A DNA stretch of 64,000 nucleotides from Allomyces arbusculus (taxonomy: Eukaryota > Blastocladiomycota > Blastocladiomycetes > Blastocladiales > Blastocladiaceae). This document shows positions 10,698-13,583 of this stretch, one piece after another. The stretch lies in the NCBI GenBank assembly GCA_027604705.1, contig JADHYV010000010.1, positions 186,001-250,000 of the forward strand. Direction: 5' to 3'. A model generated the notes under the pieces. The model was not told the DNA's origin, did no database searches, and worked only from the letters and a program-made list of their open reading frames with translations. The position numbers and the translations under genes were made by a program. Position 1 is the stretch's first letter; each line of letters begins with the position of its first letter.

Positions 10698-13583
<2,886 letters not shown>

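Follow-up and report, generated by a model that had tools for sequence, protein, structure and literature searches.

A CaMKK of the aquatic fungus Allomyces arbusculus, a kinase of the kind that turns on AMPK, the energy sensor of the cell, ends in a CaaX-type terminus, and as a sequence feature this end is confirmed. The reading frame closes with SKCACVIS and then TAG (translation of the minus strand, 10727..10698). We believe that the Ras-like lipid signal probably means that this kinase works at a membrane. Our preferred reading, which we hold with somewhat more belief than doubt, is that a farnesylated and possibly palmitoylated CaMKK would meet myristoylated AMPK on that membrane. If this is true, lipid-anchored activation of AMPK at membranes is not peculiar to LKB1 and would have arisen in an early-branching fungus on a kinase other than LKB1, and one can argue that placing kinase and AMPK together on one membrane was itself selected.

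Gene model and kinase family

Positions refer to the window, which is the whole 64,000-nucleotide stretch of DNA that was analysed. The features of the gene are as follows.

10698..13583, minus strand: CaMKK gene, 7 exons, 812 aa (GT-AG exon model)
13583-13195, 13108-13075, 12991-12730, 12666-12548, 12471-12447, 12368-12031, 11969-10698, minus strand: exons of the CaMKK gene
11490..11582, minus strand: candidate autoinhibitory/calmodulin-binding region, 31 residues (from its position after the kinase domain)
10743..11489, minus strand: low-complexity Ala/Pro/Ser/Thr-rich tail without Cys, linking kinase to CaaX (translation, residue counts)
10719..10742, minus strand: basic stretch HRRARDSK, immediately upstream of both Cys (translation)
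10716..10718, minus strand: second Cys, Cys807, candidate S-acylation site (translation; function by analogy with H-Ras)
10698..10712, minus strand: CaaX box CVIS (Cys809-Val-Ile-Ser812) and stop TAG (translation; same end in A. macrogynus P0003)

The six introns of the exon model are all GT-AG and are 61-86 bases long. The first-pass annotation had read the frame as ending KCACVIS then TAG, with Cys809 in the CaaX box, and the 812-aa exon model, its translation and the A. macrogynus end all agree with it. It had also noted that CVIS fits the farnesylation rule and that a second Cys lies nearby. Both hold in the translation, with acylation of Cys807 suggested by analogy. Cys807 is two residues ahead of the CaaX Cys809, and the 415 residues before it, back to residue 391, have no Cys.

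The deposited A. arbusculus protein, P0002, has 807 aa and is 99% identical to the 812-aa model. Where the first two exons join, it is shorter by five residues, YGTVY, and its final 12 residues are the same. We do not count P0002 as independent support because it is an annotation of the same gene on the same contig. The last 12 residues of the A. macrogynus model P0003 are also identical to those of the A. arbusculus CaMKK, and it is this second species that gives independent support. The A. arbusculus assembly is 25.9 Mb in 197 contigs and is gapped.

Two other stretches of the window were looked at by eye. The convergent neighbouring gene at 8203-10102 (plus strand) has the appearance of an amino acid transporter with multiple membrane passes, and frames at 5256-6974 (plus strand) carry a GAGVVGLS motif and have the look of a D-amino-acid-oxidase-type flavoprotein.

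The CaMKK-like identity given at first reading is borne out by solved structures. For the kinase domain, CaMKK2 and CaMKK1 take the first four places among PDB sequences (E 3e-57 to 6e-55; CaMKK2 is the closest, at 3e-57), and AMPK, SNF1 and STK11 rank below them at 7e-34 to 1e-31. An Arg/Gly/Pro-rich insert in the N-lobe aligns at the same place as the insert of CaMKK2. Membership of the LKB1/STK11 family was considered and rejected because STK11 is so far below CaMKK2 in this ranking. The segment after the kinase domain may resemble the mammalian CaMKK autoinhibitory/calmodulin-binding region, and a PDB comparison of the 51 residues around it gave no match.

A midpoint-rooted tree of 24 rows places both Allomyces CaaX kinases in one group with CaMKKs of Catenaria and Blastocladiella (support 95/88). 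A paralogue found in three Allomyces species and ending GGAVL (P0006-P0008) falls outside this group. A. arbusculus encodes three or more CaMKK-like kinases, with genes on contigs C10, C5 and C3, and in the frames read only the C10 gene, described here, has the CaaX. The kinase on C3 (C3:437569) is divergent; its closest structure is CaMKK1 at E 2.5e-22 and the frame read has no CaaX.

Spread of the CaaX end and its chance background

A homologue search gave 2498 sequences, of which we took the best 120: this gene, one from A. macrogynus and 118 others, at least two of them partial records. None of the 118 other CaMKK homologues in this best 120 has Cys at position -4, so general prenylation of fungal CaMKKs was rejected. 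Of the expectation that orthologues in related fungi share the CaaX, the part concerning A. macrogynus stood and the part concerning the other listed homologues did not. Among the homologues compared, the CaaX on CaMKK is a genus-level feature, seen in two Allomyces species only, which makes the finding narrower than the first-pass annotation had hoped. A protein search with the tail alone returned two Allomyces proteins only, one being this gene. The A. arbusculus and A. macrogynus tails are 93% identical over 93% of their length, and because they are so similar the shared CaaX end is weak evidence of selection. The nearest relatives in the tree end differently. The Blastocladiella CaMKK ends KKKGFFAKLFGKKKE and the end of the Catenaria CaMKK includes GGSFFSKWTRKLKSW (P0004, P0005), and these basic-aromatic ends could bind membranes without a lipid.

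We also counted how often such a motif appears by chance. Among 4565 stops, each preceded by 15 or more open codons and taken from the window and from fetched loci that in part overlap, 33 follow the loose pattern C-{DENQ}-[LIVM]-x and 9 the strict CaaX. The DNA pattern for CVI[STCRW]-stop occurs at 3 sites in the genome vs 7 for the reversed pattern, so it is not enriched, and neither of the other two sites ends a frame of 25 or more codons. The motif alone is of a kind of which a genome would hold some tens by chance.

The strongest alternative is chance, that is, a low-complexity Allomyces tail that happens to end KCACVIS and is either not lipidated or lipidated without consequence. The background rate of 0.2-0.7% of stops, applied to an assumed ten thousand or so genes, gives the some tens of chance motifs just mentioned. 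The restriction to one genus within the best 120 of 2498 homologues, and a tail identity high enough to make the shared ending uninformative, fit this explanation as well. Against it, the tail has no Cys for hundreds of residues until a basic stretch is followed by a pair spaced as in CxCaaX, and CVIS is a good farnesylation sequence, with Ser the last residue that FTase prefers. Of the CaaX-fitting ends among the 4565 stops, that of the CaMKK alone has another Cys at one of the three positions just ahead of the CaaX Cys. The spacing and the Cys-free tail together make the CaMKK motif, as a candidate signal, better than most chance CaaX ends. We consider chance an unlikely explanation, but one to be taken seriously.

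Lipidation machinery and a proposed meeting with AMPK

The genome has genes for FTase beta, the ICMT family, AMPK alpha and AMPK beta. Contigs C63, C8 and C53 carry prenyltransferase beta-type matches, those on C8 and C53 judged by eye only. The C63 protein is closest to FTase beta, with E 3e-38 vs 3e-7 for GGTase-I beta. PF01239 gave seven matches at three places; the one on C7 looks by eye like RabGGTase alpha, and FTase alpha was not pinned down among the seven. ICMT-family matches (PF04140) lie on C63 and C14, and we assign ICMT by family only because PF04140 also matches 5 of 14 prokaryote controls. An exon-by-exon Pfam search of the gapped assembly, a kind of search that misses genes, gave no match for Rce1 or for the N-terminal domain of Ste24. 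The one M48 frame read, on C78, looks by eye like Oma1. The CaaX proteases may have been missed by the exon-wise search, may lie in an assembly gap or may be truly absent, and the failure to find them counts against the farnesylation reading.

AMPK alpha is on contig C7. AMPK beta is on C27 (2063-3865 of the fetched locus); it has an AMPKBI domain, is closest to Sip2 and AMPK beta, and has MGNTPSTPS at the first Met of the open frame. Mammalian AMPK beta has a similar start, which is myristoylated. The C27 subunit looks N-myristoylated because its start is of the myristoylation type. In yeast, Sip2 is myristoylated and Sip1 carries the consensus, according to the part of PMC4033248 that we used.

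From these signals we infer lipidation, S-acylation, a membrane location and AMPK as the substrate, as follows. The CVIS box would be farnesylated at Cys809 by farnesyltransferase. Once VIS is cleaved off and methylation and S-acylation of Cys807 have taken place, the long flexible tail would hold the kinase stably to a membrane. There it would phosphorylate AMPK/SNF1 in the T-loop, and perhaps CaM kinases too, and the beta subunit, with its predicted N-myristoylation, would carry AMPK to the same membrane. This is the same logic as was proposed for mouse farnesylated LKB1 and myristoylated AMPK, here on a CaMKK. The first-pass annotation had suggested a membrane-tethered CaMKK that activates SNF1/AMPK. 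A membrane-tethered AMPK kinase is plausible in Allomyces because the same genome encodes FTase beta as well as the AMPK beta with the MGNTPSTPS start, but the CaaX motif is no general fungal feature among the listed CaMKK homologues.

The lipid anchor might instead serve a site of Ca2+ entry at the plasma membrane, for example in zoospores, where the kinase would activate CaMKI-type kinases and not AMPK. CaM kinase I gamma is anchored in this way and CaMKK is its upstream kinase (PMC10435254, in the portion consulted), and AMPK could be served by the CaMKK-like kinases on C5 and C3 and the LKB1-like kinase on C114. We think this improbable, and more so than chance, since the AMPK beta of the same genome has its myristoylation-type start and, as described in the excerpt of PMC4648557, AMPK is the route by which the CaMKK of fission yeast works when glucose is low.

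Our preferred reading, in which anchored CaMKK and AMPK would meet on a membrane, also needs the 3' end of the gene to be correct. Over the last exon, GC at third positions stands at 0.82; it is 0.80 for the final 120 nt of the frame and falls to 0.525 over the 240 nt past the stop, so the frame has coding-type base composition up to the stop, since the drop comes only after it. The concern that a different 3' splice form alters the last residues depends on the donor rule. No alternative 3' intron of 45-130 nt has a GT[AG]NG[TC] donor, a rule that only 3 of the 6 donors of the gene itself obey. With GT[AGT] donors allowed, there are 12 candidate introns of 50-110 nt near the 3' end, 10 of which would delete CVIS, among them all 6 of gene-typical length (61-86 nt). 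We regard it as very improbable that splicing removes the CaaX and sets the anchor, leaving the protein partly or mostly soluble as in short LKB1 (PMC3898322 reports a mouse LKB1 splice variant without the farnesylation site), because the permissive candidates are set against the empty GT[AG]NG[TC] search and against P0002 and P0003, neither of which uses an intron that removes CVIS.

Comparison with LKB1 and other anchored proteins

The idea is less new than first stated because animal LKB1 is itself a farnesylated AMPK-activating kinase. LKB1 needs STRAD and MO25. Mouse LKB1 ends KIRRLSACKQQ and its vast majority is prenylated; C433S mice have less membrane LKB1 and blunted AMPK activation with viability unaffected, and a meeting of farnesylated LKB1 and myristoylated AMPK beta on the membrane was proposed as a possibility (PMC3898322, sections consulted). 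In flies, a polybasic lipid-binding motif of LKB1 outweighs the farnesyl, which is largely dispensable, and there is no rescue once both anchors are lost (PMC5490199, sections consulted).

A. arbusculus also has an LKB1-like kinase of its own, on contig C114.

286-4380 of the fetched locus: LKB1-like gene, C114 (STK11 closest structure)

To our knowledge, fungi are usually said to lack LKB1. The closest solved structure to the C114 kinase is STK11 (E 3e-28), followed by MAP kinase kinase 5 (7e-22) and CaMKK1 (9e-21), and its T-loop reads FAGTHHYMSPE. When the genome was searched with a DNA pattern for the LKB1 T-loop, no site matched. As read, the gene ends ARIGFRLGFFGR and has no CaaX. Relatives of C114 are present in other blastocladiomycetes and chytrids (P0123-P0128, P0130, P0131, P0137).

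We took the 27 best hits to the C114 query (P0123-P0149) as an LKB1-like set, cut by rank and not by tree, with one hit probably bacterial. Nine of the 27 have Cys at -4, and all nine fit C-{DENQ}-[LIVM]-x (CKVQ, CTLM, CIVS, CTIL, CTLM, CCIF, CILF, CVVG and CVVG, the last two near copies); among the 93 other listed kinases one has Cys at -4, and that one is not CaaX. The nine are P0135, P0138, P0140, P0141, P0142, P0144, P0145 (Balamuthia), P0147 and P0149. If Balamuthia and the other CaaX-ending hits are true LKB1s, the LKB1 CaaX is older than animals. None of the nine named fungal LKB1-like models among the 27 has a CaaX, four of them (P0123, P0124, P0126, P0127) being silent on the tail as they break off inside the kinase domain or directly behind it. 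The LKB1-like kinases of zoosporic fungi thus appear to be without a CaaX, and in Allomyces the lipid signal seems to be on the CaMKK rather than on the LKB1-like kinase, apparently a separate use of LKB1-type logic.

Several of these fungal LKB1-like kinases end basic-aromatic, for example KMFFKNLFH, similar to the Blastocladiella CaMKK. A rule set post hoc (a net charge of 3 or more together with two or more F/W, over the last 24 residues) picks out 10 of the 118 CaMKKs, 6 of the 27 LKB1-like hits and 8 of the 93 other kinases, so it is not specific. We offer only tentatively, and with more doubt than belief, the wider idea that a C-terminal membrane anchor may be a recurring need of AMPK-activating kinases that passes between families and changes type; in Allomyces the CaaX would then have arisen on a CaMKK whose sister genes in Catenaria and Blastocladiella end basic-aromatic.

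Titles and abstract beginnings on CaMKK prenylation, CaMKK/SNF1 and Allomyces, with subscription journals mostly outside the scope, did not show that any CaMKK has been reported as prenylated. The Allomyces CaMKK belongs to the same kinase group as Ssp1 and the Sak1/Tos3/Elm1 kinases. In osmotically stressed fission yeast, the CaMKK Ssp1 relocates to the cell membrane, and this coincides with weaker binding of the 14-3-3 protein Rad24 (PMC3909272, in the part consulted, where the stems farnesyl and prenyl are in the reference list only).

The targeting signal itself is like that of the H-Ras hypervariable tail, which has a CxCaaX end after a basic residue, although Ras is a GTPase and the signal alone is in common. 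By role, the closest system is LKB1/STK11, also an upstream kinase of AMPK with a C-terminal CaaX (PMC3898322, in part), but it is of another kinase family and its CaaX is CKQQ without the CxC spacing. CaM kinase I gamma/CLICK-III is, like the Allomyces CaMKK, a Ca2+/calmodulin-family kinase with a CaaX; it is prenylated there and then palmitoylated on adjacent Cys residues (PMC10435254, in part), though it is a substrate of CaMKK and not a CaMKK. Its palmitoylation mutant in the same source is 4CS, whereas the Allomyces CaMKK has one candidate Cys. With one Cys, two lipids and one substrate, the proposed CaMKK end would be a clean test case.
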